A stretch of 64,000 nt of DNA from Oscillospiraceae bacterium. Lineage in GTDB: Bacteria > Bacillota > Clostridia > Oscillospirales > Ruminococcaceae. The notes beneath the pieces are model-generated. The model was not told the DNA's origin. It saw only the letters and a list, made by a program, of their open reading frames with translations, and did no database searches. Position numbers and translations under genes: made by a program. The first letter of the stretch is position 1. Each line of letters starts with the position of its first letter. The stretch lies in assembly GCA_017547525.1 (NCBI GenBank), contig JAFYPL010000010.1, positions 26,141 through 90,140 of the forward strand, written 5' to 3'. Positions 1 through 52,048 of the stretch are shown here, piece after piece.

Positions 1-953
1 AGGAATTTGTAACTCTGCTGGGGCCTTCTGGCTGTGGCAAAACTACAACCTTGCGTATTATCGGTGGCTTCCAGCAGCCAAAATCCGGCAGTGTTTTTTT
101 TGATGGCAAAGAAATCGCCGACCTTCCTCCTTACAAGAGAGAGGTTAACACAGTTTTCCAGAAATATGCGCTTTTCTCACACCTGAACGTGTTTGAAAAC
201 ATTGCATTCGGCCTGCGTCTGAAAAAACTGCCAGACCAGGAAATCAAACAGCGTGTACTGGAAATGCTGGAAATCGTAGGGCTGAAAAACTATGCCCGTC
301 GTGATATCAACACACTTTCCGGTGGTCAGCAGCAGCGTGTAGCTATCGCGCGTGCACTGGTAAACCATCCGAAAATCCTGCTTCTGGACGAACCTCTGGG
401 TGCGCTGGACCTGAAACTGCGTAAAGAAATGCAGATAGAATTGAAAAGAATCCAGCAGGCGCTGAAAATCACATTTATCTATGTAACACATGACCAGGAA
501 GAAGCTCTTACAATGAGTGACACCGTGGTTGTTATGAAAGGCGGTATCATTCAGCAGATTGGTACACCACAGGATATCTATAACGAACCTGTAAACGCCT
601 TTGTTGCCGACTTTATCGGTGAAAGTAATATTCTGGACGGTATTATGGTACGTGACTTTCTGGTGGAAATCAACGGTACCCAGTTTACTTGTGTTGACAA
701 AGGTTTCAAACCTAATGAACTGGTAAACGTAGTGGTACGTCCGGAAGATATAGAGGTTGTTCCTGCTATTCAGGGACAGCTGTCCGGCGTTGTAAAAAGC
801 GTAGTGTTCAAAGGTGTTCATTATGAAATCACTGTTGAACAGGGCGGCTTTGACTGGATTATTCATTCCACACAGAAACAGAATGTGGGTGAGCTGATCG
901 GTATGAATATCGGTCCTGAAGAAATTCACATCATGAAGAGAATGAGGGACTAG
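1..953 (+). CDS. potA: Spermidine/putrescine ABC transporter ATP-binding protein PotA (5' partial)
   Basis: ATPase subunit that powers polyamine import through PotB and PotC. The gene enters the window already in frame (codons from base 3), so its start lies upstream. The Walker A motif GPSGCGKTT is at about 21-47, the signature LSGGQQQR near 314-338, Walker [13 protein letters not shown] near 376-411 and the H-loop THDQEEA near 483-503. A C-terminal TOBE-like regulatory domain fills about 640-930. It is followed after 3 bases by potB, which together with potC and potD identifies the substrate class as polyamines. Other CUT/MOI-family ATPases share these motifs, so the specificity rests on the operon context. 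Confidence 0.93.
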
Positions 954-956
954 TCT

Positions 957-1766
957 ATGAAGAAAAAATACATTAGTGCGCCGTACCTTGTATGGATGGC
1001 ATTGTTTATCTTTGCCCCTTTGTGCCTCGTGGTGTATTTTGCATTCACAGATAAACGGGGTAATTTTACTTTAGAAAATATGAGCCGGCTTTCTGTATAC
1101 GCACCGGTATTTATGCGCAGTATCATACTGGCTGGTGTAGCCACAGTATTTTGTCTGGTTATGGCTTATCCTGTAAGCTACATGCTGTCCAGAATGAAAG
1201 CAAGCAAACAGAAAGTTATGATGATGATTATCATCATGCCTATGTGGATGAACTTCCTGCTGCGCACATATGCATGGATGAGTCTGCTGGAAAGAAACGG
1301 TCTTATCAATAAGTTCCTTGGCCTTTTCGGCGTAGGTCCTTTTAATATGATTAATACCAATGGTGCAGTTATTCTGGGTATGGTTTACAACTATCTGCCA
1401 TTTATGATCCTGCCGCTGTATTCAACAATGGTAAAAATCGACCATTCACTTATCGAAGCTGCGCAGGACCTGGGTGGCAACCTGTATCAGGTGCTGACAA
1501 AAGTACTGATTCCGCTGAGTCTGCCTGGTATAACCACAGGTATCACAATGGTATTCGTACCTAGCTGCTCCACATTCGTTATCTCCAGAATGCTGGGTGG
1601 TGACAGCGCATTTATGATAGGTGACCTTATCGACCTGCAGTTCTTGGGTAATAGCTATAACCCTCATCTGGGGTCAGCAATGAGCCTTGTGCTGATGGCA
1701 CTTGTATTGCTGTGTATGAGTATTACCAATGGCTTTGCCGATGATGATTCGGAGGTGATGCTGTAA
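957..1766 (+). CDS. potB: Spermidine/putrescine ABC transporter permease PotB
   Basis: First integral membrane permease of the polyamine importer, 269 residues, with about six predicted membrane segments beginning near residue 8. The cytoplasmic EAA loop that docks on the ATPase is visible as EAAQDLGG followed by a proline-glycine turn near residues 160-190. It starts 3 bases after the potA stop and overlaps potC by one base (TAATG), so translation is probably coupled. The C-terminus is acidic (ADDDSEVML) rather than the basic tail often seen. Family assignment is secure; the exact polyamine preference is inferred. Confidence 0.93.
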   Translation: MKKKYISAPYLVWMALFIFAPLCLVVYFAFTDKRGNFTLENMSRLSVYAPVFMRSIILAGVATVFCLVMAYPVSYMLSRMKASKQKVMMMIIIMPMWMNFLLRTYAWMSLLERNGLINKFLGLFGVGPFNMINTNGAVILGMVYNYLPFMILPLYSTMVKIDHSLIEAAQDLGGNLYQVLTKVLIPLSLPGITTGITMVFVPSCSTFVISRMLGGDSAFMIGDLIDLQFLGNSYNPHLGSAMSLVLMALVLLCMSITNGFADDDSEVML

Positions 1767-2569
1767 TGAAACTTATCAAAAAACTTTACTGGGCATTCAT
1801 TCTGGCATTCCTCTATATGCCTATATTTGTAATGATAGCTTTCTCTTTTAACCAGTCAAAAAGCCGTACTGTATGGACGGGTTTTACTTTTAAATGGTAC
1901 ATAGAGCTGTTTAAGAATGAAGCTATTATAAAAGCCTTTATCGTTACACTTTTTGTGGCAATTGTGTCTGCTACTGTAGCAACTGTACTGGGTACGGTGG
2001 CTGCTGTAGGCATAGATGCTATGAAAAACTGGGAAAAATCCGTGGTTATCAATATCAGCTATATGCCTGTAGTTAACCCTGATATCATCACCGGTATTTC
2101 ATTGCTGCTGCTGTTCAATGTGTTCAAAGGCTGGTTTGACTTTGAATTCGGTATGGGTACTTTGCTGATTTCCCATATTACATTCAACCTGCCGTACGTT
2201 ATCCTTTCTGTTCTGCCGAAGCTGAAACAGATGGATCATCGTGTGTACGAAGCTGCCCTTGACTTGGGCTGTAACCCTACACAGGCATTTTTCAAAGTAG
2301 TTGTGCCTGAAATTATGCCGGGTATTATCTCCGGTTTCCTCATGGCGCTTACTTTCTCAATTGATGACTTTATTATTTCTTACTTTAACTCTGGTCACGC
2401 CCAGACATTGCCTGTAGCTATCTATGCTATGGCCCGTCGCCGTGTAAGTCCGGAAATGTATGCATTGTCCACTATAATGTTTATAGTTATCCTTGCTGTG
2501 CTTCTGGTGGTAAACATCAAAGCCACAAAAGATGAAAAGGAAATGCGAACAAAGAGAGAGGTAAAATAA
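1766..2569 (+). CDS. potC: Spermidine/putrescine ABC transporter permease PotC
   Basis: Second permease subunit, 267 residues, pairing with PotB in the importer. It has about six hydrophobic segments and the EAA loop EAALDLGCNPTQAFF around residues 165-180, followed by the conserved VVPEIMPGI turn. Its ATG shares a base with the potB stop codon, and its own stop abuts the TTG start of potD, so the three genes form one tightly packed translational unit. Nothing is truncated relative to the family. Confidence 0.93.
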   Translation: MKLIKKLYWAFILAFLYMPIFVMIAFSFNQSKSRTVWTGFTFKWYIELFKNEAIIKAFIVTLFVAIVSATVATVLGTVAAVGIDAMKNWEKSVVINISYMPVVNPDIITGISLLLLFNVFKGWFDFEFGMGTLLISHITFNLPYVILSVLPKLKQMDHRVYEAALDLGCNPTQAFFKVVVPEIMPGIISGFLMALTFSIDDFIISYFNSGHAQTLPVAIYAMARRRVSPEMYALSTIMFIVILAVLLVVNIKATKDEKEMRTKREVK

Positions 2570-3832
2570 TTGAAAAGAATTATTAGTTTGATTGTGGCTC
2601 TCGGTCTGGTTATGGCTATGGCTGTACCTGCTTTTGCACGGGAAACTCTTCTGATTGCACCTGCACCAGATGCAAAAAAGATTGAGGCTGCACAGCTGGC
2701 AGAAAACTATGACTGGGAAAGACTGAAAGGTCAGGATATCACTCTGAATGTTTTCAACTGGGGTGAATATATGTCCTTAGGTCAGGATGGTGCTATGCAT
2801 GTTAACAAAGAGTTTGAAGCACTGACCGGTATCAAAGTAAATTATCAGACTTTTGATAACAACGAAGGTATGTACACAAAACTGAAAAGTGGCGGTGCTA
2901 AATACGATGTTATCATTCCGTCTGACTACATGATTGCAAAAATGATCAAAGAGGATATGCTTCAGCCACTGGATTGGAGTCTTATCCCTAACGCCACAAT
3001 GTATATCAGTGAAAGATATATGGATCTGGAATACGATCCTGGCAACGTATATTCCGTACCATACACATGGGGTACAGTAGGTATTATCTATAATACTACT
3101 CTGGTGGATGAAGTACCTGACAGCTGGAACGCATTATGGGATGAAAGATATGCCAACGATATACTGATGTTTGGCAACAGCCGCGATGCATTTGCTATAG
3201 CACTGCTGAAAAACGGCCTGTCTCTGAACCCTAAAACATCTGATGATATTGAAGTGGCACGTGAAGACCTGATAGCACAGAAAGACGTAGTACAGGCTTA
3301 CGTAAATGATGAAATCTTTGACAAAATGTGTGGCGGTGAGGCTGCTCTGGCACCATACTACGCAGGCGACGCACTGACAATGATGGAAGAAAACCCTGAT
3401 CTGTCTTTTGCTCTTCCTAAAGAAGGCACAAACCTGTTTACAGATGCTGCAGTTATTCCAAAAGACGCAAATAATGTGGAAGCTGCCCATATGTATATCA
3501 ACTTCCTCAATGAAACAGATGTAGCACTGGCAAACGCAGAGTATATTTACTATCCTACACCACATCTGGGTGCATACGAGTTGCTGGATGAAGAAATGAA
3601 AAACAATCTGGTTGCTTACCCTACAGATGAAATGCTGGAAAATACAGAGGTATTCACTACTCTGTCAGATGAAATCAGTGCAGAACTGGATACAGCATGG
3701 AGCGATATCCGCTCTTTCAACCAGTCCAGTAATGATCTGTTTGTTCCTACATTCTTCCTGATGATGGTTATAGCTACAGTAGCTATCAACACTATCCGTT
3801 CAAGACAGGTAAGAAACAGAATAGACTATTAA
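2570..3832 (+). CDS. potD: Polyamine-binding protein PotD with C-terminal membrane anchor
   Basis: Extracytoplasmic substrate-binding protein of the polyamine importer, 420 residues, starting with TTG directly after the potC stop. Residues 1-23 form a signal peptide ending in a type I cleavage site (AFA then RE). There is no lipobox cysteine, which Gram-positive binding proteins normally use for anchoring. Residues about 75-380 match the PotD/PotF fold (FNWGEYM, then YDVIIPSDYM). The last 30 residues hold a hydrophobic stretch (PTFFLMMVIATVAINTI) followed by RSRQVRNR, which reads as a stop-transfer anchor. This is a plausible replacement for the lipid anchor and is unusual. A hairpin terminator follows. 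Confidence 0.92.
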   Translation: MKRIISLIVALGLVMAMAVPAFARETLLIAPAPDAKKIEAAQLAENYDWERLKGQDITLNVFNWGEYMSLGQDGAMHVNKEFEALTGIKVNYQTFDNNEGMYTKLKSGGAKYDVIIPSDYMIAKMIKEDMLQPLDWSLIPNATMYISERYMDLEYDPGNVYSVPYTWGTVGIIYNTTLVDEVPDSWNALWDERYANDILMFGNSRDAFAIALLKNGLSLNPKTSDDIEVAREDLIAQKDVVQAYVNDEIFDKMCGGEAALAPYYAGDALTMMEENPDLSFALPKEGTNLFTDAAVIPKDANNVEAAHMYINFLNETDVALANAEYIYYPTPHLGAYELLDEEMKNNLVAYPTDEMLENTEVFTTLSDEISAELDTAWSDIRSFNQSSNDLFVPTFFLMMVIATVAINTIRSRQVRNRIDY

Positions 3833-3837
3833 TATTA

Positions 3838-3863
3838 AAAGGCAGGTATGACCTGCCTTTTTT
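3838..3863 (+). terminator. Intrinsic terminator of the pot operon
   Basis: Inverted repeat GGCAGGT (3841-3847) and ACCTGCC (3851-3857) with a 3-base loop, followed by a run of six T. It sits directly after the potD stop. Confidence 0.9.
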
Positions 3864-3898
3864 ATTTGTGAATATCTTTTGAAATATTGCGCATTTGT

Positions 3899-3927
3899 TT
3901 GATTTTGATATTTAATTAATATATACT
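3899..3927 (+). promoter_or_regulatory. Candidate sigma-A promoter for the MarR gene
   Basis: TTGATT at 3899-3904 and TATACT at 3922-3927 are separated by 17 bases. The spacer is very AT-rich and contains the palindrome TTAATTAA, a possible autoregulatory site. The coding start is 34 bases past the -10 box. Confidence 0.55.
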
Positions 3928-3960
3928 GAAGATATAACAAGAAATAATGGTGGTGTATTT

Positions 3961-4431
3961 ATGGAGCGCACAAAACATACTCTTAATGAACTGTTGGTAG
4001 GACTGTTCAACTATATTCTGTATATAGAAGAGAAAAACCTGAAAGAATCAGGTGTAAACCTGACAATGAATGAAGTGCATACTCTGGAAAGTATACAGAA
4101 AGCCCGTGACAACAGTATGACATATGTTGCGCGCCGTTGCATGGTGGCGCAAAGCACTCTTACAAGTAATGTGGCAAAACTGGAAAGAAAAGGCTATGTG
4201 CAACGTTATAAAGATGAGGTTGATAAACGTATTACCCGTGTTTCTGTTACCGGAAAAGCAGACGAAGTGTTAAAAATACATGAAGAGTTCCATACACAGA
4301 TGATAGATAAAATTGTCGGTGATCTGGGGCTTGATGAAAATCAGCTGCTGATGGAATCACTGGAAAATGTGCTGGGCTATTTTAGGGAAGAATATTACGA
4401 TAAAACAATACTTGTGGAAGATCCACAGTAA
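3961..4431 (+). CDS. MarR-family transcriptional regulator
   Basis: Winged-helix DNA-binding protein of 156 residues. The recognition part is around residues 55-85 (ARRCMVAQSTLTSNVAKLERKG) and the wing around 85-100 (RYKDEVDKRITRVSVT), both typical of MarR. Flanking helices form the usual dimer interface. It is a single-gene unit with its own promoter and terminator, sitting between the pot operon and mgtE, so the target cannot be read from context. An AT-rich palindrome in its promoter suggests autoregulation. It resembles FabT-type regulators in size, but no fatty-acid genes are nearby. Confidence 0.88.
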   Translation: MERTKHTLNELLVGLFNYILYIEEKNLKESGVNLTMNEVHTLESIQKARDNSMTYVARRCMVAQSTLTSNVAKLERKGYVQRYKDEVDKRITRVSVTGKADEVLKIHEEFHTQMIDKIVGDLGLDENQLLMESLENVLGYFREEYYDKTILVEDPQ

Positions 4432-4445
4432 TTTTCAGAAAAATA

Positions 4446-4482
4446 AACCGGACAGGGCGGTAGTGCTCAGTCCGGTTTTTTA
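4446..4482. terminator. Bidirectional terminator between the MarR gene and mgtE
   Basis: Stem ACCGGAC (4447-4453) pairs with GTCCGGT (4470-4476) and is followed by T6 on the plus strand. On the minus strand the same stem is followed by a T-rich tract, so it can also end mgtE transcripts. Confidence 0.8.
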
Positions 4483-4498
4483 TTATATTATTGAGTAA

Positions 4499-5959
4499 TT
4501 ATACCAACAGTGGCATAAACAGATTTGCAAGGCTTAAGAATACGAAAAAGCCCAGTACGTCTGTTGCTGTGGTCAGGAATATGGAACTGGCCAGAGCAGG
4601 GTCGACTTTCAGTGCTTTGAGAACCAGTGGCACAAAGAAACCGAAAACACCTGCAACGATGTTGTTCATTATCATAGCCAGTACAACTATAACACCCAGA
4701 TAAATATTGCCGTAGCGCACCGCTGTGATAGCACCTGCTACAGATCCGATGATAGCGCCGTTTATAATACCGGCTGCAATTGGTTTGAATACTTTCTGCC
4801 AGTCGTCTTTCAGGTTTATTTCGCCCAGAGTGATACTGCGCAAGACGATGGACATTGTCTGGTTGCCGGCATTACCACCCATGTTTGCGATAATTGTCAT
4901 AACAGCAGACAGAGCAACTACCTGTGAGATGGTGTCTTCAAACAGAGAAAGTGTGAATGAAGCCAAAAATGCAGTGCACAGGTTAACCAAAAGCCAAGGC
5001 AGACGGAATTTTACGCTTTCTGCTACAGTGGAATCAATGCTTTCTTCGGCACTGGCACCACCCATTTTCAGAATATCTTCGGTCTGTTCTTCAAAGAGAA
5101 CGTCGATGATATCGTCGACAGTAATAATACCCAGCAAGGCACCTTTTCTGTTTACAACAGGGATAGCTGTAAGGTCGTATTTGGATGCAATATGTGACAC
5201 TTCTTCCTGGTCAATATCAGGAGTAACAGAAATTACATTGTCATCCATAATTTCTGACAGGATGGTGTCGTTGTCTTCCACCAGAATATCACGAAGGTCA
5301 GCTACGCCTATCAGTTCTTTTTTGCCATTCAGAACAAATATTGTATCGATAACTTCGGTCTTAGGGCCGATTTCTTTGATTTTGTTCAGGGCTTTTTCTA
5401 TTGTCATGTTGCCGGACAGAGCGATGTATTCAGTGGTCATGATACCACCCGCAGTATCGTCTTCGTACAGCAGCAGGCTGGCGATATCCACGCTGACTTT
5501 GTTTTTCAGCATGCGCATTATGGTTTTGCGGCGGTCCATAGGCATTTCGCCAATGATGTCGGCAATATCGTCGTTTGACATATATTTGAACATGCCCATT
5601 ATGTCAGGGTAGTCCAGTAATTCCACAAACCTCTGCTGCAGGTCTTCATCCATCTGCTCCAGAATCTGTGCCATGTGTTCGTGGTCAGTTCTTCCGAAGA
5701 ATTTCAGCAGTTCTTCGTCCTCGAAATCTTCCAGTGCAATGGCGATATCGATGGCGTAGGCTGATTCAATTACTTCGTACAGTTCTTCCTCACTGCTGTT
5801 CATCAGCATGTCTTTCAGGCTTACATCAGCCTCTTCCAGTTCATCTTCGTCAGCAGTGATGGCATCTATAAGTTCGATGATTTCGTTGTCATCTTCTTCA
5901 ATGAAGTCAGGTTCTTCACTCGGGGTAAATCCAACTTCATTCAGGATTTTTTCATCCAT
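4499..5959 (-). CDS. mgtE: Magnesium transporter MgtE
   Basis: Homodimeric Mg2+ channel of 486 residues. The order is an acidic N-terminal helical domain (about 40-150), a pair of CBS domains (about 155-275) that sense cytoplasmic Mg2+, and a membrane domain of five helices (about 310-485). The conserved selectivity motif GGNAGNQTMS and the late aspartate of TTATDVLGFF are present. The start is set by AAGGAGG seven bases upstream. That SD lies inside an 11-bp hairpin at the end of a roughly 180-base structured leader, and a Fur-like box overlaps the promoter, so the gene is probably controlled by metal at two levels. Some MgtE proteins also move Mn2+ or Co2+. Confidence 0.95.
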   Translation of the reverse strand: MDEKILNEVGFTPSEEPDFIEEDDNEIIELIDAITADEDELEEADVSLKDMLMNSSEEELYEVIESAYAIDIAIALEDFEDEELLKFFGRTDHEHMAQILEQMDEDLQQRFVELLDYPDIMGMFKYMSNDDIADIIGEMPMDRRKTIMRMLKNKVSVDIASLLLYEDDTAGGIMTTEYIALSGNMTIEKALNKIKEIGPKTEVIDTIFVLNGKKELIGVADLRDILVEDNDTILSEIMDDNVISVTPDIDQEEVSHIASKYDLTAIPVVNRKGALLGIITVDDIIDVLFEEQTEDILKMGGASAEESIDSTVAESVKFRLPWLLVNLCTAFLASFTLSLFEDTISQVVALSAVMTIIANMGGNAGNQTMSIVLRSITLGEINLKDDWQKVFKPIAAGIINGAIIGSVAGAITAVRYGNIYLGVIVVLAMIMNNIVAGVFGFFVPLVLKALKVDPALASSIFLTTATDVLGFFVFLSLANLFMPLLV

Positions 5960-41497: not shown

Positions 41498-42682
41498 ATG
41501 AAACAGCTTATTATGTGTTATCTGGGCGAAATGGCTCTGAAAGGCCTGAACAAATCCACTTTTGAAGCCCAGCTGATGAAAACAATCAGAAACAGAATCA
41601 GAAATCTGGGTCAGTTCAAAATTTACAAAGCCCAGTCTACATTCTACATCGAACCAGAAGATGAATTCTGCGATGTGGATGCAGCATTTGAAAAAATCAA
41701 AAAAGTATTCGGTATTGCTGCAGTTTCCAAAGCAGTAGTTACAGAAAAAGACTTTGATAAAATCGCAGAAATCGCACCTGTATATCTGGAAGATGCACTG
41801 AAAAATGCCAGAACTTTCAAAGTAACAGCAAAAAGAAGTGATAAGTCTTTCCCAATGGGCTCACTGGAAATTTCCCGTGAAGTAGGCGCGGCTATCCTGC
41901 GCAAATTCCACCACCTGAAAGTAGATGTGCACAATCCACAGGTTACAGTTATGGTTGAAATCCGTGACTTTGGTGCATACATCCACGAAGCAAAACAGCC
42001 AGGTGCGGGCGGTATGCCTGTTTCCACTTCCGGTAAAGGTGCGCTGATGCTGTCCGGTGGTATCGACAGCCCGGTTGCAGCATATATGATGGCAAAACGT
42101 GGTATGTCCATTATGTCTGTTCATTTTGCGTCTCCACCATACACAAGTGAAAGAGCAAGAAACAAAGTAATCACACTGGCAGAAAAACTGACAGACTACA
42201 CAGGCGACATGAACCTGTTTATTGTACCGTTCACAACAGTACAGGAATATATCCGTGACCATGGTGTACCAGAGCTGTTCACTATCCTGATGCGCCGCAG
42301 TATGATGCGTATCACAGAAAAACTGGCACAGAAATTTGGTGCCAGCGCTATCATCACAGGCGAAAGTCTGGGGCAGGTAGCCAGCCAGACTATGGCCGCT
42401 ATCACAGCTACAAATGACAGCGTGGATATGCCTATATTCCGCCCAGTAATCGGTATGGACAAAACAGAAATCACAGAAATCGCAAGAAAGATCGATACAT
42501 TCGAAACATCTATACTGCCATTTGAAGACTGCTGTACAATCTTTACTCCACCACATCCAAAGACAAAACCTAGTCTGGCTGAAGTAATCGCTGCAGAAGA
42601 AGCAATGGGTCTGGAAGAACTTTTCCGTCTGGAAGCTGAAGCTACAGCAGAATCAGAAAAACTGCGCATCAACGTACAGTAA
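41498..42682 (+). CDS. thiI: tRNA 4-thiouridine synthase ThiI
   Basis: Transfers sulfur to U8 of tRNA and, in some bacteria, to ThiS for thiamine synthesis. 394 residues: an N-terminal ferredoxin-like part, THUMP domain (about 60-165), and PP-loop domain with MLSGGIDSPVAAYM near residue 185. It lacks a C-terminal rhodanese domain, as usual in Firmicutes, so it relies directly on the cysteine desulfurase whose stop codon it abuts. Confidence 0.95.
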   Translation: MKQLIMCYLGEMALKGLNKSTFEAQLMKTIRNRIRNLGQFKIYKAQSTFYIEPEDEFCDVDAAFEKIKKVFGIAAVSKAVVTEKDFDKIAEIAPVYLEDALKNARTFKVTAKRSDKSFPMGSLEISREVGAAILRKFHHLKVDVHNPQVTVMVEIRDFGAYIHEAKQPGAGGMPVSTSGKGALMLSGGIDSPVAAYMMAKRGMSIMSVHFASPPYTSERARNKVITLAEKLTDYTGDMNLFIVPFTTVQEYIRDHGVPELFTILMRRSMMRITEKLAQKFGASAIITGESLGQVASQTMAAITATNDSVDMPIFRPVIGMDKTEITEIARKIDTFETSILPFEDCCTIFTPPHPKTKPSLAEVIAAEEAMGLEELFRLEAEATAESEKLRINVQ

Positions 42683-42745
42683 TTTATTCTGTAAATAAAA
42701 ACGGCTGTGAATCCACAGCGAAAAATCTGATATAGAGGTGATACA

Positions 42746-45700
42746 TTGAAAGCTGAAATAATCTGCGTCGGCACAGAGTTGCTTTTAGGCGACATAGTAA
42801 ATACCAACGCACAGTTTATAGCACAGCAATTATCTGCTCTGGGTATTTCTGTTTACCATCAGCAGGTGGTAGGTGATAACCCTGACAGACTGCATCAGGC
42901 GGCAGAAATAGCGAAAATCCGCAGTGATATTGTTATTTTTACCGGCGGTCTGGGACCTACAGATGACGACCTGACAAAAGAAACAATAGCAAAACTGTAT
43001 AACGACACTCTGGTGTTCAATCAGGATATATGTGACGATATACAGGACTATTTCAATCGTCTTGGCCGCACAATGACAGAAAACAACAAAAAGCAGGCCA
43101 TGGTACCAGCCAACGGCAAATATCTGGAAAACAACTACGGTACTGCACCGGGCATTGTATTTATCGATGATGAAAAAATGGCTATCCTTATGCCTGGTGT
43201 ACCACGCGAAATGAAGCCGATGATGGAAAAACAGGTAGTACCTATGTTGAAAAGGTTGGTACGCGGTGTTATCGAATCCCGTTATGTACATACCATCGGT
43301 ATAGGCGAAAGCGCACTGGAAGAAAAGATAAAAGTACTGCTTGCTTCACGGAATCCTTCCATGGCATTGTATGCCGCGGAGGGAGAGGTTACTGTGCGCA
43401 TAACAGCATCTGCCGTCGATTCAGCTACAGCAAACGATATGCTGGACAGAGCCTACAGCCAGCTGGACAGCCTCATTCATGACTATATTTATAGTGTGGG
43501 TGAAGAGAATATTGAAACCGTGCTGGTAAAGAAACTGAAAGCAGAAAAGAAAACTGTAGCCACAGCTGAAAGCTGCACAGGCGGCACTCTCAGTGCCAGA
43601 ATCACTTCTGTACCTGGTGCATCCGGTGTGTTTTCACTGGGGGTATGCACTTATTCTGACCGGCAGAAACATAAAATACTGGGTGTAAGTCAGGAAGAAC
43701 TGGAAACATATACAGCTGTATCACAGCCGGTAGTATGCCGGATGGCCAGAGGTATTCTGGAAAAGAGTGGTGCTGATTATGCCATAGCCACTACAGGTTA
43801 TGCAGGTCCTGACGGCGGTACACCACAGGAACCTGTGGGTACAGTATATATTGCTGTAGCTACAGCAGACTGCACCTATGTGCGTAAATGTTCATTTGCT
43901 GGTGAAAGAAGCAGAATAATACACCTGGCCAGCCAGAGTGCACTTGATCTTCTGCGCGGAGTGCTTTACGGCATAGATAATCCTGAAGTAAAAATCATTG
44001 ATAATTTCAATGATGATACAATAAACGATGATGAACCAGAAAAGAAAACTGGTTGTTTTAAAACTTTCTTCACACTGATTACTATGATACTTCTGGCTGG
44101 TCTACTGGCCTGGGGTTATCTCTGGTATAAAAATGATGGTAATATAGCTGTAAATCTGCCAAAGGTAGACCTGCCGGCCATAGTTACACAGATAGTGGAC
44201 AAGTTCAAAAAGGATCCGGCTGATGTTTCAGCTGTCCTCAGCGAAAGACAGGCAATCGATTTTTTTTCAAAAGGTTTTGAGAAAGACACCATAAAAACAT
44301 TGGGCAGCCTTCAGTCTCAAAACCATAATCTTGAAGGCTGGCTCACATTCCGCTATTCGAAAAATGAATATCCTGTTTATTCACGGCAGGAAAATCTGCC
44401 GGATGGCGGAGAAATTTACTATCTCCCGGATGGTAAAATCAGCGAATATACATATATATCAGGTTTTACAGACAAAAACTTTTTTGACCTGACTGATTTA
44501 CAGTCTGTACGTGACAACAGCAGTTTTATACTGTTCAGTGACGACAGCCACACCGATTACCAGATTTTCGCGGTGGGTACTTTTTCCCAGCGGGACCTGG
44601 ACGAACTGACAGCCACTGTGGATAAACAGCAGTATATTGTGCAGATACGTGCACGCAGTCTTTTTGATGTGGATGTGTCTGTAAAAGATGCTGATAATCT
44701 GGTGGTTCTGGTCCAGAACAAAGGCGGGGAAAAATATGTGGTGGCTTTTGCAGTAAAAGGCAGCCGTAATACATTCCCTAGTGTGGACATAAAAACAGCG
44801 GCTATATACTCCGACTGGTATATGGTAGATAATAATCTGACAGACGAACTAGCTGGTGAGGCACTGTTGTATGCACAGGAAGTATACGATCGTGATAACT
44901 GGCTGCTGACACCGGTTGTTGTTGAAACACCATCACCTGACAGCAGTGACGATGACACATCTGATACATCACGGTCTCAGGCGGTAAGTCCGTCACCATC
45001 TGTTAAACCAAGTGCGTCACCATCCGCATCACCAAGCCCAACACCAAAAACATCACCGACCCCTACTGCAAGACCAGCGGTTAGCCCGAGTCCGTCACCA
45101 TCTGCCAGACCTACAGTAACACCAAGTGCCACTCCGGCGGTATTACCTAGCCCAGCGGCCACAGTGTCACCATCTGCTACACCGGTGGCAACAGCTACAC
45201 CGACCCCTACTGTTCAGCCTACACCTACTCCACGGTCCACACCTACACCGGTGCCGACTCCGGAACCTACTCCGGTGCCTACACCTGCCGGTGAAATACT
45301 GACAGTAACTATGAACGGTGAGGTAGTATCCGGTCCGGCGGTGCAGATACTTAGCCAGATTGTAGCCATTGAAATGACTTCATCATGGAATCCTGAAGCT
45401 TTGAAAGCTCAGGCGGTAGCTGCACATACATACCTGCTTTATCAGTACTCCAACGGTGTTACAGCTCCATCTGTAGCCGGCAGAACCAGTCCATCACAGG
45501 TGGTGGTAAATGCTGTAAGCGAAGTAGCTGATATTATTATGACAGTTGGCGGCCGTGCGGTATACACACCTTACACTGCATCTGTAGCCGGCAGAACAAA
45601 CCCTGCTGATCAGGTATGGGGCACACCACACTCACATCTGCAGAGCGTGGAAAGTAAGTATGACTATATGTCCAGCGGTTACGAAAAGGTGTATACAATT

Positions 45701-46108
45701 TCTGCTGAAGTTATGAAATCCATTCTTGACGCCAGAATCGGTACAAACCTGGATCTGGAAAGAGCAGGAGAATGGTTCAGTGTAGTTGACTATACTGATG
45801 GTGGTTATGTGCGCAGAATGCACATTGATGGTACAACCACATATATCTCACAGTCAGGCAATGTGCGCAATATAACAGGTAACTGGTTTGCCACAGATAT
45901 TCTGTCTGACGCAGGCTATCCTCTGCGTAGTGCGGCGTTTACCATTTCTTACGCCGATGGTATGTTTACCATTGTTACACAGGGCTACGGCCATGGTGTA
46001 GGTATGAGCCAGTGGGGTGCACAGCTGTATGCACAGCTGGAAGGCTGGACCTACGACAGAATACTTACGCACTATTACACAGGTGTCACACTGCAGAAAG
46101 TCAGCTGA
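42746..46108 (+). CDS. cinA: CinA fused to a transmembrane, sortase B-like and SpoIID-domain protein
   Basis: One uninterrupted 1120-codon frame with a TTG start after AGAGGTG. Residues 1-415 are a complete CinA: MoCF domain (IICVGTELLLGDIVNTNAQF, GGLGPTDDD) plus nicotinamide-nucleotide amidase (TAESCTGGTLSARITSVPGAS, TGYAGPDGG). An acidic linker and a membrane helix (441-461) follow. Residues about 490-715 resemble a class B sortase (GWLTF, EYPVYS, IRARSLFDVDVSV) but lack the catalytic His and Cys. A Pro/Ser/Thr linker (about 727-848) leads to a SpoIID/LytB domain (850-1120) with E876 in AIEMTSSW and H1083 in GHGVGMSQWG. A cytosolic metabolic enzyme is thus tethered to a wall-remodelling exodomain. 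It may be a lost stop between cinA and a spoIID-like gene, or a real fusion. ltaE follows. Confidence 0.85.
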   Translation: MKAEIICVGTELLLGDIVNTNAQFIAQQLSALGISVYHQQVVGDNPDRLHQAAEIAKIRSDIVIFTGGLGPTDDDLTKETIAKLYNDTLVFNQDICDDIQDYFNRLGRTMTENNKKQAMVPANGKYLENNYGTAPGIVFIDDEKMAILMPGVPREMKPMMEKQVVPMLKRLVRGVIESRYVHTIGIGESALEEKIKVLLASRNPSMALYAAEGEVTVRITASAVDSATANDMLDRAYSQLDSLIHDYIYSVGEENIETVLVKKLKAEKKTVATAESCTGGTLSARITSVPGASGVFSLGVCTYSDRQKHKILGVSQEELETYTAVSQPVVCRMARGILEKSGADYAIATTGYAGPDGGTPQEPVGTVYIAVATADCTYVRKCSFAGERSRIIHLASQSALDLLRGVLYGIDNPEVKIIDNFNDDTINDDEPEKKTGCFKTFFTLITMILLAGLLAWGYLWYKNDGNIAVNLPKVDLPAIVTQIVDKFKKDPADVSAVLSERQAIDFFSKGFEKDTIKTLGSLQSQNHNLEGWLTFRYSKNEYPVYSRQENLPDGGEIYYLPDGKISEYTYISGFTDKNFFDLTDLQSVRDNSSFILFSDDSHTDYQIFAVGTFSQRDLDELTATVDKQQYIVQIRARSLFDVDVSVKDADNLVVLVQNKGGEKYVVAFAVKGSRNTFPSVDIKTAAIYSDWYMVDNNLTDELAGEALLYAQEVYDRDNWLLTPVVVETPSPDSSDDDTSDTSRSQAVSPSPSVKPSASPSASPSPTPKTSPTPTARPAVSPSPSPSARPTVTPSATPAVLPSPAATVSPSATPVATATPTPTVQPTPTPRSTPTPVPTPEPTPVPTPAGEILTVTMNGEVVSGPAVQILSQIVAIEMTSSWNPEALKAQAVAAHTYLLYQYSNGVTAPSVAGRTSPSQVVVNAVSEVADIIMTVGGRAVYTPYTASVAGRTNPADQVWGTPHSHLQSVESKYDYMSSGYEKVYTISAEVMKSILDARIGTNLDLERAGEWFSVVDYTDGGYVRRMHIDGTTTYISQSGNVRNITGNWFATDILSDAGYPLRSAAFTISYADGMFTIVTQGYGHGVGMSQWGAQLYAQLEGWTYDRILTHYYTGVTLQKVS
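44920..45290 (+). repeat. Pro/Ser/Thr low-complexity repeat inside the fusion gene
   Basis: About 120 codons are almost only Pro, Ser, Thr and Ala, with many near-repeats of SPSPS and TPTPT. The DNA is correspondingly repetitive (ACACCTACTCC-like units). It acts as an extended wall-spanning linker and is likely to vary in length between strains. Confidence 0.85.
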
Positions 46109-50290: not shown

Positions 50291-52048
50291 ATGCCATTAA
50301 ACAGCAAAAACAAAAGTGCAAAAACTAATGGTTCAAAAGAAGCAGGCTCTACTATTAAGATAATATTTAAAAAATATAACCCTGAAAAGGTTACAATAGA
50401 TGGTTTAAAAAAATTCTTCGGTTTCATATTTTACCATGTAGGTTACAATATCGAAATCAATACAGGTATTATAGGTAAACGCCTTGATAAAGTACTTGAT
50501 AAAGTATTTTCTACACTGTCCGGTATGGCTGGTAGTGCGGCAGTTTTCTTTGATAAACTGACAGATACTATTATGGATGACCTTGGAGAACCTATGGAAA
50601 GACTGGGACGTGCTTTCACAGCCATTTCAGCCATCCGCAAAGAGTCAAAAGAAGATAAAAACAGAAATGCTGGTAAAGAAATGCGTGCCTACATGAAAGA
50701 TGGTATGGCAAAACATAAAGAACTGGCAAAAATGCTGTATAGCTATGTAACACCATTGGTTTGCTGTATAATTTTTATAACTACAGTATCACTGGGCTTG
50801 GGTCGTGAGTATGCCATTCAGGTAATGGTAGATGATGAGCCTATAGGCGCAATCAAAAACTATACAGTTCTTGAAAATGCAAACAAAATAATTGAAAACA
50901 AACTGGTAAGTACAAATGACCAGAGCTGGTCACTGAACTCTTCCATTAAGATGGTTGCACTTAACGGAAAAGAAACAGTTGATGAAAGACAGCTGGCAAA
51001 CAATATACTTGCCACATCAGATGAAAATATTGTGGAAGCTACAGGTCTTTATGTAGACGGTGTGTTTATGGGTGCTGTGCAGGACCCAACATTACTGAAC
51101 AATGCACTGGAATCACTTAAAGCGCCATATATCAATGGTGACCCTAACAGAACAGTATCATTTGTACAGCAGGTAAGCGTACTGGATGGTATTTTCTTCA
51201 CAGACAGTGTTGTACCTGATGAGCAACTGGCAAACATGGTAGTCAGCGAAGTAAGCGGTGAAAAACATTACACTGTAGTTTCCGGTGATAACCCATGGGT
51301 TATTGCAAGAAAGAATGGTATAACGCTCAATACTCTTTACAGTCTTAACCCTGGTATGCAGGGCGGCGGTATGTGGGTAGGTGATGTTGTTATCGTTGGT
51401 GCATCAGTTCCTTTCCTCCAGGTTAAATACGTGGAAACAAGCACACGTCAGGTGGAAATCAACTATACAACAAAAACAGAAAGAAATAACAGCATGAACC
51501 TGGGTACAAGCAAAGTTTCCCAGAAAGGTGAAAAAGGCCTTAACGAACAGACAGTTGAATCTACATATATTGATGGTATTCTGCAGAGCGAAATAGTAAC
51601 ACAGACAGTGGTACTGAAAGAGCCTGTACAGGAAATTATCCAGCAGGGTACTCTGTGGAATGGTCAGGTTATCCAGGGTGGTAACGGCAGACTTATCTGG
51701 CCTACAGCGGCTGGCCGTGTATCCCGTGGCTTTACTGGTCAGTATCCAAGCCATAACGGTGTTGACATAGCTGCACCAATCGGTACACATATTTACGCAG
51801 CTGACAGCGGCGTGGTAACAAAAGCAAAATACACTAACGTAGGTTATGGTGTATATGTAGAAATCGAACACGGCGGCTACCAGACACTTTACGGTCACTG
51901 TTCAAGACTGTTGGTAAGCGTAGGTCAGCAGGTTACACAGGGTCAGGTAATTGCTTACATGGGCTCTACAGGTAACTCTACAGGTCCTCATCTCCATTTC
52001 GAAGTTAAGAGAGGTAACTACCGTTACGATCCATACGGTTGGTTCTAA
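50291..52048 (+). CDS. Membrane-anchored LysM, G5 and M23 peptidoglycan endopeptidase
   Basis: 585-residue cell-wall protein. A long basic cytoplasmic N-terminus (1-145) is followed by a membrane helix (about 150-172, VTPLVCCIIFITTVSLGLG). The extracellular part has a mixed region (175-330), a LysM domain (about 332-378, HYTVVSGDNPWVIARKNGI), a G5 domain (about 380-455) and an M23 domain (about 465-585). The zinc residues are present: HNGVDIA, LYGHC and PHLHFEVK, so it should be active. The 145-residue cytosolic extension is unusually long for this class. AAGGAGAGG precedes the ATG. Confidence 0.9.
   Translation: MPLNSKNKSAKTNGSKEAGSTIKIIFKKYNPEKVTIDGLKKFFGFIFYHVGYNIEINTGIIGKRLDKVLDKVFSTLSGMAGSAAVFFDKLTDTIMDDLGEPMERLGRAFTAISAIRKESKEDKNRNAGKEMRAYMKDGMAKHKELAKMLYSYVTPLVCCIIFITTVSLGLGREYAIQVMVDDEPIGAIKNYTVLENANKIIENKLVSTNDQSWSLNSSIKMVALNGKETVDERQLANNILATSDENIVEATGLYVDGVFMGAVQDPTLLNNALESLKAPYINGDPNRTVSFVQQVSVLDGIFFTDSVVPDEQLANMVVSEVSGEKHYTVVSGDNPWVIARKNGITLNTLYSLNPGMQGGGMWVGDVVIVGASVPFLQVKYVETSTRQVEINYTTKTERNNSMNLGTSKVSQKGEKGLNEQTVESTYIDGILQSEIVTQTVVLKEPVQEIIQQGTLWNGQVIQGGNGRLIWPTAAGRVSRGFTGQYPSHNGVDIAAPIGTHIYAADSGVVTKAKYTNVGYGVYVEIEHGGYQTLYGHCSRLLVSVGQQVTQGQVIAYMGSTGNSTGPHLHFEVKRGNYRYDPYGWF

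Follow-up and report, generated by a model that had tools for sequence, protein, structure and literature searches.

CinA is widespread, and its roles outside NAD recycling, among them a link to competence and to drug tolerance, are unsettled. The free enzyme of Thermus thermophilus (TtCinA) dimerises in its structure, and its COG1058 domain moves during the ADP-ribose reaction (PMC4246079, excerpts); for the one-domain PncC protein of A. tumefaciens (AtCinA), roles have been described for the NMN-deamidase residues S31, Y58, K63, T105 and R145 (PMC5384747, excerpts). CinA is said in a classification of the family to be "occasionally fused with other domains", and the words sortase and SpoIID are absent from the main text of that paper (PMC3855486). 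In the open-access literature no publication on a CinA-sortase-SpoIID fusion was found, in agreement with the initial annotation of the locus reported here, which knew of no described CinA-SpoIID fusion.

The window is the whole stretch of 64,000 nucleotides that was analysed, from an Oscillospiraceae bacterium (GCA_017547525.1). On its plus strand, positions 42746-46108 form one frame of 1120 codons with a TTG start and no internal stop, organised as follows:

41498..42682, plus strand: thiI-like gene directly upstream (context; named from sequence reading)
42734..42740, plus strand: Shine-Dalgarno-like AGAGGTG, 5 nt 5' of the TTG start (direct sequence reading)
42746..46108, stop included, plus strand: whole fused gene CinA-membrane helix-dead sortase B-stalk-SpoIID, 1120 aa (frame and translation)
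42755..43252, plus strand: MoCF/COG1058 domain, residues 4-169, which retains its conserved motif residues (PF00994 121.8 bits; GENDDK motif columns)
43277..43492, plus strand: CinA KH domain, residues 178-249 (PF18146 69.3 bits; GIGES Glu kept)
43505..43963, plus strand: PncC/NMN deamidase domain, residues 254-406 (PF02464 180.8 bits; SYKTR columns)
43964..44053, plus strand: acidic cytosolic linker, with the basic stretch EKKTG ahead of the helix (sequence)
44054..44122, plus strand: single membrane helix, putatively N-in/C-out (hydropathy)
44123..44905, plus strand: class B sortase fold, modelled over residues 460-720 and profile-aligned over 514-686, without catalytic His, Cys and Arg (profiles, AlphaFold, Foldseek)
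44894..45301, plus strand: Pro/Ser/Thr stalk, residues 717-852, the fastest-evolving part (sequence)
45302..46105, plus strand: SpoIID/LytB domain, residues 869-1118 matched, with E876 and GHGVGMSQWG (TIGR02669; EHS columns kept)

A thiI-like gene likewise lies upstream at locus L018.

The CinA part matches PRK00549 (NF001813) over its full length with 491.3 bits, against a curated cut-off of 379. Equivalents of the predicted NMN-deamidase residues S31, Y58, K63, T105 and R145 (AtCinA numbering) are all kept as SYKTR; every catalytic residue tested is present, and the intact CinA motifs claimed at the outset are real. In domains and catalytic residues this part is like TtCinA and AtCinA (PMC4246079, PMC5384747, excerpts); those are free enzymes, however, whereas the window CinA forms the N-terminal part of a membrane protein that also bears extracellular domains. 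The single hydrophobic helix, annotated at residues 441-461, is placed by hydropathy at about 437-459, and with one helix the N-in, C-out topology already proposed is judged right, its orientation being the probable one.

What follows the helix had been called a sortase B-like domain. The fold is supported, and the catalytic His, Cys and Arg are gone. Equivalents of YGHN or LSTC were sought in the window and in the genus sequences listed, and none was found, so the domain is not filed as a functional sortase. The window scores 13.2 bits with the class B sortase model TIGR03064 (NCBIfam; cut-off 153.75), and the sortase segment by itself has no Pfam match. An AlphaFold model of the segment (pLDDT 83) finds class B sortases as its best PDB matches in Foldseek (5yfk: E 3.9e-11, probability 1.00, TM-scores of 0.54 and 0.65 when normalised by query and by target, respectively), the model not being independent of the sortase hypothesis because its alignment included true sortases. 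Scores of our domain HMMs are likewise not independent, because the models were trained on these same loci; the key sortase test was repeated with a sortase profile from which the window genus had been omitted. A profile of nine genus copies, aligned by hhalign with a profile of relatives' intact sortases (n=21), gave 94% (E 1.4e-7), and an SrtB HMM built without the window genus gave 20 bits, the best of 1000 shuffles reaching 10.6. With this HMM, eight of 15 genus copies score 20-30 bits and L013 scores 11.8. All six members of the other sub-clade fall in the noise (4.5-10.3 bits), and they are identified as sortases by their position and kinship. Among relatives of the fusion, several retain the sortase His, Cys and Arg. 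L075, L096 and L101 pass the TIGR03064 cut-off (167-170 bits), L103 (146.9) falls just under it and L112 gave no match with this model. The segment thus has the fold and N-terminal membrane helix of class B sortases (TIGR03064; PDB 5yfk, 4lfd, 2oqw) but differs from them in lacking all three catalytic residues and in its sub-cut-off score. We know of no class B sortase that carries a CinA domain. To treat the sortase as a minor insert between CinA and SpoIID is incomplete, since the partner with which CinA recurs in this family is sortase B.

The C-terminal domain scores 130.7 bits with the SpoIID/LytB model TIGR02669 (cut-off 83.3). E876, which we take to be the equivalent of B. subtilis SpoIID E88, and GHGVGMSQWG (residues 1082-1091) stand where the initial annotation placed them. 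Of 82 SpoIID proteins, 80 retain all three of Glu, His and Ser; the others are L074, with Asn for His, and one partial match. Domain, catalytic Glu and GHGVGMSQ are shared with SpoIID/LytB lytic transglycosylases such as the SpoIID of C. difficile and B. anthracis and the septal SpoIID of Chlamydiales, and E88 of the B. subtilis protein is essential (PMC6635528, excerpts). Unlike canonical SpoIID, the window domain lies in a separate clade and below the cut-off for stage II sporulation protein D (TIGR02870; 117.3 bits against an equivalog cut-off of 234.75). In a FastTree analysis from which permuted domains were left out, eight canonical SpoIID copies of the genus form their own clade, at 100, apart from the fused SpoIID. 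Score and tree together rule out that the window domain is the sporulation SpoIID.

The fusion is one frame under purifying selection. It had been suspected of being simply a lost stop between neighbours, and the window genome is indeed an incomplete draft (78.6% complete, 43 contigs). The junction-spanning frame, however, is found in all 16 genus genomes, whole in 14 and cut by contig ends in two, which excludes chance (Oscillospiraceae MAG records L034-L038 are the same loci as G008, G009, G012, G005 and G011, already within the 16), and full-length matches to other species are 46-80% identical. Between the window and L005, dN/dS is 0.044 for MoCF, 0.062 for KH, 0.106 for PncC, 0.096 for linker and membrane helix, 0.114 for the dead sortase and 0.076 for SpoIID; it is highest in the stalk (0.30-0.42), and every segment lies well below 1. 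Because the junction is open throughout the genus and selection is purifying across it (0.04-0.11 over folded segments and linker), and because no in-frame start backed by a Shine-Dalgarno-like stretch was found in the window between PncC and the helix end, a lost stop is excluded, and we give an assembly artefact or lost stop codon virtually no credence. Separate genes, the outcome that the initial annotation had named as refuting, do occur in relatives, in other genera only, where they represent the separate state of the same trio and not an artefact. An intact CinA, for its part, would show purifying selection even without any coupling.

From the end of PncC to the end of the helix, the window has no in-frame start with a Shine-Dalgarno-like stretch; the in-frame starts of this interval, a GTG that follows PncC by two codons and an ATG within the helix, both lack one. 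An internal start yielding a separate SpoIID is thereby ruled out in the window for this interval. In genus members L007, L008, L010, L014, L015 and L017 possible internal starts do have such a stretch, and there a second start is for that reason conceivable.

The family carries cinA (or pncC), srtB and spoIID consecutively, either fused or as individual genes; unfused partners keep the same order and strand, and other fusion combinations also occur. The CinA-dead sortase-SpoIID fusion is one state of this wider family module. Of the sampled family genomes, 103 gave a strong CinA match. CinA is fused in 22 of these; in 40 it is directly followed by srtB or by a decayed gene for CinA and a membrane part, usually a sortase; and 41 have a free cinA or pncC with no adjacent srtB found (one locus being cut by a contig end), so the cinA-srtB link is not universal even within the family. 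Second CinA-sortase(-SpoIID) copies are present away from free cinA. At order level, a fused CinA-sortase occurs in at least three other families (L205, L206, L207) among the matches listed, and srtB lies directly downstream in three of 18 free cinA loci from other families. A class-level search (291 genomes, 221 with a match) speaks against a class-wide feature: among the 150 matches listed, only the window has a CinA frame longer than 532 aa. As the best matches were listed, these figures give a minimum for the distribution outside the family. Taken as a whole, the 1120-aa product is on balance best explained as a type II membrane protein derived from the conserved gene trio cinA/pncC-srtB-spoIID.

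Decay of the fused copies proceeds one domain at a time. Of the 72 fused PncC domains examined, 38 have an intact PncC site and 34 have lost it. All 38 intact copies, 14 of them from the window genus alone, are the only PF02464 match of their genome, and for 32 of the 34 lost-site copies another PncC is present in the same genome (29 found first, three by further search; the extra PncC of G037 and G076 counted by domain match and not by catalytic residues). In G041 and G047 the fused copy has decayed and no other PncC was found, and in incomplete genomes a second PncC could be missed. The rule that an only copy stays intact involves four changes of one trait, two of the other and two informative pairs (p 0.5); the intact-or-decayed pattern is a weak one, resting on few independent events.

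In the closer pairs, domains that lack their active site are still under selection. Decayed CinA gave dN/dS of 0.08-0.24 in the pairs L120/L126 and L107/L112, whose dead sortases gave 0.06 and 0.11, respectively, and of 0.2-0.32 in L184/L189 and L092/L093; L197/L200 is near relaxation (MoCF 0.90, KH/PncC 0.43-0.44) and L182/L187 is saturated. In decayed copies of the full-CinA type (n=24), mean retention is 31% at active-site columns versus 51% at other conserved columns. The non-catalytic S71, A75 and A79 are kept at 96-100%, S48 and Y58 are down to 8% and R145 to 21%, and S31 (46%), K63 (46%) and T105 (54%) are still present. Decayed KH-PncC copies (n=10) have also lost many columns that the full type retains, for example S71, at 10%.

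We propose, with slightly more confidence than doubt, that the fusion is a wall hydrolase anchored in the membrane and carried by a CinA scaffold in the cytosol, its dimerisation, localisation and activity being presumed. The CinA part would dimerise like free CinA and so pair and position the outside parts, the dead sortase could act as a rigid spacer or as a wall/lipid-II docking module at the membrane surface, and the stalk would let the SpoIID domain reach the peptidoglycan glycan strands, to be cleaved by lytic transglycosylation. CinA would be kept mainly as a scaffold or sensor; in the window genus it may also supply the only NMN-deamidase activity of the cell, which is the proposed reason why its active site survives there. 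The suggestion that the fusion tethers NAD(P) recycling to the wall accordingly holds as a possibility for this genus but not as the general reason for fusion, because 34 of 72 fused PncC domains lack the NMN-deamidase site and are still kept. The same count weighs against a regulatory CinA, whose active site would sense or process NMN or ADP-ribose and gate the outside SpoIID through the helix, coupling NAD status to wall cleavage: the architecture persists despite the loss of those residues, and a long Pro/Ser/Thr stalk is a poor signal transmitter. We regard such gating as unlikely, even though all tested catalytic residues are kept in the window CinA and SYKTR also in PncC-only fusions (L101-L103, L192), and the movement of the TtCinA COG1058 domain in the ADP-ribose reaction offers a plausible signal (PMC4246079, excerpts).

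Neighbours might also have fused for co-expression or anchoring with each domain working alone, as the trio is a plausible operon, fusions occur in different pairings and selection on each enzyme would by itself conserve each end. Yet purifying selection acts on the dead sortase and on most of the decayed CinA domains tested, for which no remaining catalytic role is known, and the second CinA-sortase(-SpoIID) copies sit away from free cinA, which makes an absence of functional coupling rather improbable. Less credible again is a single chain that is later cut, near the membrane or in the stalk, into free cytosolic CinA and a wall enzyme; the long, variable stalk would be a natural cleavage region, but a cut leaves the retention of decayed CinA domains unexplained. 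The repeated fusion or adjacency of CinA to a sortase and a wall hydrolase, often kept after active-site decay, points to a non-catalytic envelope role of CinA.

In one group of gut bacteria, this conserved trio, separate or fused, suggests a connection from the cell interior to the cell wall that has not been described before. With it, one can test whether peptidoglycan cleavage is controlled by NAD-nucleotide chemistry or by a CinA scaffold, the mixture of intact and dead domains offering naturally occurring mutants. More tentatively, cinA/pncC-srtB-spoIID might form a transenvelope machine, so far undescribed, in Oscillospiraceae-type bacteria; the CinA (gephyrin-like MoCF) fold under the membrane, as scaffold or nucleotide sensor, would place and pair sortase and lytic transglycosylase at a particular wall site such as the septum; selection would keep the physical inside-to-outside link, and the parts may be fused, split, duplicated or catalytically dead. 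In principle this is alike to the Glp/GlpR divisome scaffold of Corynebacterium, where a molybdopterin-type cytosolic enzyme fold has been repurposed as a scaffold with a membrane partner that acts in wall and division control (PMC10522489, excerpts). As systems the two are unrelated: Glp resembles MoeA, its receptor GlpR is a separate protein, and a link to FtsZ would apply to the fusion by analogy only.

The fused gene is a single frame in which the domains can be told apart.

42746-46108, + strand: fused gene, open for 1120 codons, with a TTG start and AGAGGTG upstream.

A complete CinA occupies residues 1-407 of the product (PRK00549, 491 bits); its MoCF, KH and PncC domains all score above the Pfam cut-off, and five of five residues probed by mutagenesis in the A. 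tumefaciens protein (S31, Y58, K63, T105 and R145, hereafter SYKTR; PMC5384747) are kept. A short acidic linker, basic at its end, leads from CinA to the sole hydrophobic helix, and in the window the segment from PncC to the helix end offers no in-frame start preceded by a Shine-Dalgarno-like sequence. Beyond the sortase fold, a Pro/Ser/Thr stalk precedes a SpoIID/LytB domain that features E876 and GHGVGMSQWG and scores 130.7 bits against TIGR02669 (cut-off 83.3). This domain is not the sporulation SpoIID, because it misses the TIGR02870 cut-off and lies outside the canonical clade; in a FastTree of 80 rows, with permuted domains excluded, the eight canonical SpoIID copies of the genus form their own clade apart from the fused SpoIID (support 100). 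By reading, 50291-52048 (+ strand), 4 kb from the fusion, encodes another wall enzyme, a membrane protein whose C-terminus is M23-like and which also has a LysM-like stretch.

An assembly artefact is ruled out, as one frame spans the CinA-SpoIID junction in all 16 genus genomes searched; the frame is complete in 14 and cut by contig ends in G006 and G015 (both checked). Five of these genomes are the Oscillospiraceae MAGs RGIG4658, RGIG4610, RGIG7678, RGIG3025 and RGIG7738 (G008, G009, G012, G005 and G011, respectively) from roe deer, water buffalo and goat rectum; their fused frames are 1133-1149 aa long. Between the window copy and the L005 copy, dN/dS is 0.044 for MoCF, 0.062 for KH, 0.106 for PncC, 0.096 for linker plus helix, 0.114 for the dead sortase, 0.304 for the stalk and 0.076 for SpoIID, values that are only rough because dS is 1.0-1.8; against more distant genus members several dS values are saturated.

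Residues ~460-720 are a class B sortase fold. Searched alone against Pfam, the region gives no match; a profile-profile comparison of nine genus copies with 21 intact sortases from relatives gives a probability of 94% (E 1.4e-7), and an HMM made without the window genus gives the window region 20 bits, the best of 1000 shuffles reaching 10.6. With this HMM, scores reach 20-30 bits in eight of the 15 genus copies and 11.8 in one; the other six score 4.5-10.3 and form a sub-clade (L011, L012 and L015-L018) in which the region's own sortase signal is absent. The top PDB matches of the region's AlphaFold model (pLDDT 83) are the C. perfringens and S. aureus sortases B; because true sortases were in its alignment, the model is not independent support. 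By alignment columns, the window copy lacks all three catalytic residues (His, Cys and Arg). Within alignment reach, His and Cys are gone throughout the window genus, in loci L073, L080-L085, L088, L095, L098, L201 and L202, and in the CinA-remnant proteins that follow a free cinA; all three residues are retained in 33 of the 72 fused proteins that have a PncC domain. A free 264-aa sortase B in the window genome (L229, G000:C24, 3951-4742, - strand) retains, by reading, the motifs of these three residues, which leaves the cell a candidate catalytic class B sortase.

In the family, sortase B repeatedly lies beside CinA/PncC or is fused to it, and SpoIID is often next. Among 148 family genomes evenly drawn from a larger group, a CinA query matched in 104 at E 1e-30 or better and a sortase B query in 142 at E 1e-10. 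The loci fetched surround either a CinA match or a long sortase frame; 5617 open frames in 155 loci were scanned with domain HMMs trained on these same loci. A locus was scored in 121 family genomes, including 15 of the window genus. In 35 genomes, sortase and/or SpoIID is fused to an intact CinA or PncC. In another 40, an intact cinA or pncC stands free, with srtB or a decayed CinA-membrane frame directly after it; in five of these 40 the next frame is a decayed CinA without a sortase match. In 41 the free gene is adjoined by neither, G062 being counted here because its contig ends there. In the last five, the only copy in the fetched loci is fused and decayed. Recounted for the 103 sampled genomes (the 104 CinA-bearing ones minus G110, whose locus was not fetched), the figures are 22 fused, spread over 20 genera, 40 with the partner directly after, and 41 without. 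A second fusion of CinA remnants with sortase and/or SpoIID lies elsewhere in 23 of the 41 genomes that lack an adjoining partner, and a PncC part is detectable in 18 of these fusions.

The unfused order cinA/pncC, srtB, spoIID occurs for example in L109, L136, L141, L158, L165 and L179; in L167, L171 and L172, three sortase B genes stand in tandem between pncC, which comes first, and spoIID. CinA-sortase fusions are found in other families of the order (L205, L206 and L207), where srtB adjoins cinA in three of 18 loci examined. In locus L211 (f24, 805-5039, - strand) a free cinA is followed by a 630-aa frame with sortase B at its end, then by a 775-aa frame in which CinA matches weakly and SpoIID is present as two pieces. 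At class level, the other 149 rows among the matches listed include no CinA frame longer than 532 aa.

SYKTR is kept in 38 of the 72 fused proteins that have a PncC domain; 14 of the 38 belong to the window genus, several genomes being incomplete. The 38 genomes have no free intact PncC copy in the loci fetched and exactly one PncC domain each in a Pfam PF02464 search. SYKTR is lost in the other 34, and 29 of these have a free intact copy among the fetched loci. For the remaining five, the PF02464 search found another PncC in three: within a DHH-PncC protein in G013, and as candidate short frames, identified by domain match, in G037 and G076. It found none in G047 (91% complete) and G041 (87% complete), which carry a decayed fused copy. 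A test of independence had two informative pairs (p 0.5), and the correlation of decay with a second PncC is a pattern, not statistical proof, because few independent events lie behind it. G013 stands alone in the window genus in that the CinA of its CinA-SpoIID fusion has decayed, its SpoIID being intact; in the DHH-PncC protein of the same genome (L228, G013:C30, 2254-3621, - strand), a PncC with an intact-looking ESC...TYSNETK site is joined to a DHH-type phosphoesterase-like part, named by reading.

Purifying selection acts on decayed CinA in L120/L126 (dN/dS 0.084 for KH, 0.19 for PncC), L107/L112 (0.24 and 0.12), and L092/L093 and L184/L189 (about 0.2-0.3); it is weak or absent in L197/L200 (MoCF 0.90, KH and PncC 0.43-0.44), and L182/L187 is saturated. 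Across 24 copies of the full-CinA type that have decayed, retention averages 31% for active-site columns and 51% for other conserved columns: S71, A75 and A79 at 96-100%, S31, K63 and T105 in about half, R145 at 21%, and S48 and Y58 at 8%. Ten decayed copies of the KH-PncC type retain less. Of 82 SpoIID proteins, 80 retain the conserved Glu, His and Ser, the exceptions being L074 (Asn for His) and one partial match.

In a CinA tree (FastTree, 160 rows) the window genus is one clade (support 100), nested in a clade (support 98) that also contains G056, another fused case, and 19 genomes whose intact cinA is free. Directly after cinA, 14 of these 19 have a decayed CinA-membrane(-sortase-SpoIID) frame, four do not, and one is cut by a contig end. 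The tree accommodates either of two histories without deciding between them: the fused form may be older, with cinA duplicated in the sister lineages, or the window lineage may have fused or refreshed its own CinA.

In the open-access literature, no description was found of CinA fused to or linked with sortase or sortase B, of CinA with SpoIID, or of sortase (including class B) with SpoIID, and nothing relevant on sortase with nicotinamide-nucleotide amidohydrolase or with competence in Oscillospiraceae; because only open-access literature was covered, this absence is not proof of novelty. CinA is described as a dimer with moving COG1058 domains (PMC4246079), and a SpoIID homologue as degrading naked glycan strands, with septal localisation outside sporulation (PMC6635528). 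Beside the observed anatomy, conservation, partner genes and residue losses, we propose that the fused protein would be a wall hydrolase with a membrane anchor; its CinA part would hold and pair it, and the sortase fold would be a spacer or dock. CinA of the window genus may also perform the cell's NMN deamidation. The Corynebacterium Glp/GlpR scaffold, whose molybdopterin-enzyme fold is reported to be repurposed for division (PMC10522489), offers the closest working parallel, one that we draw as analogy, claiming no membership.
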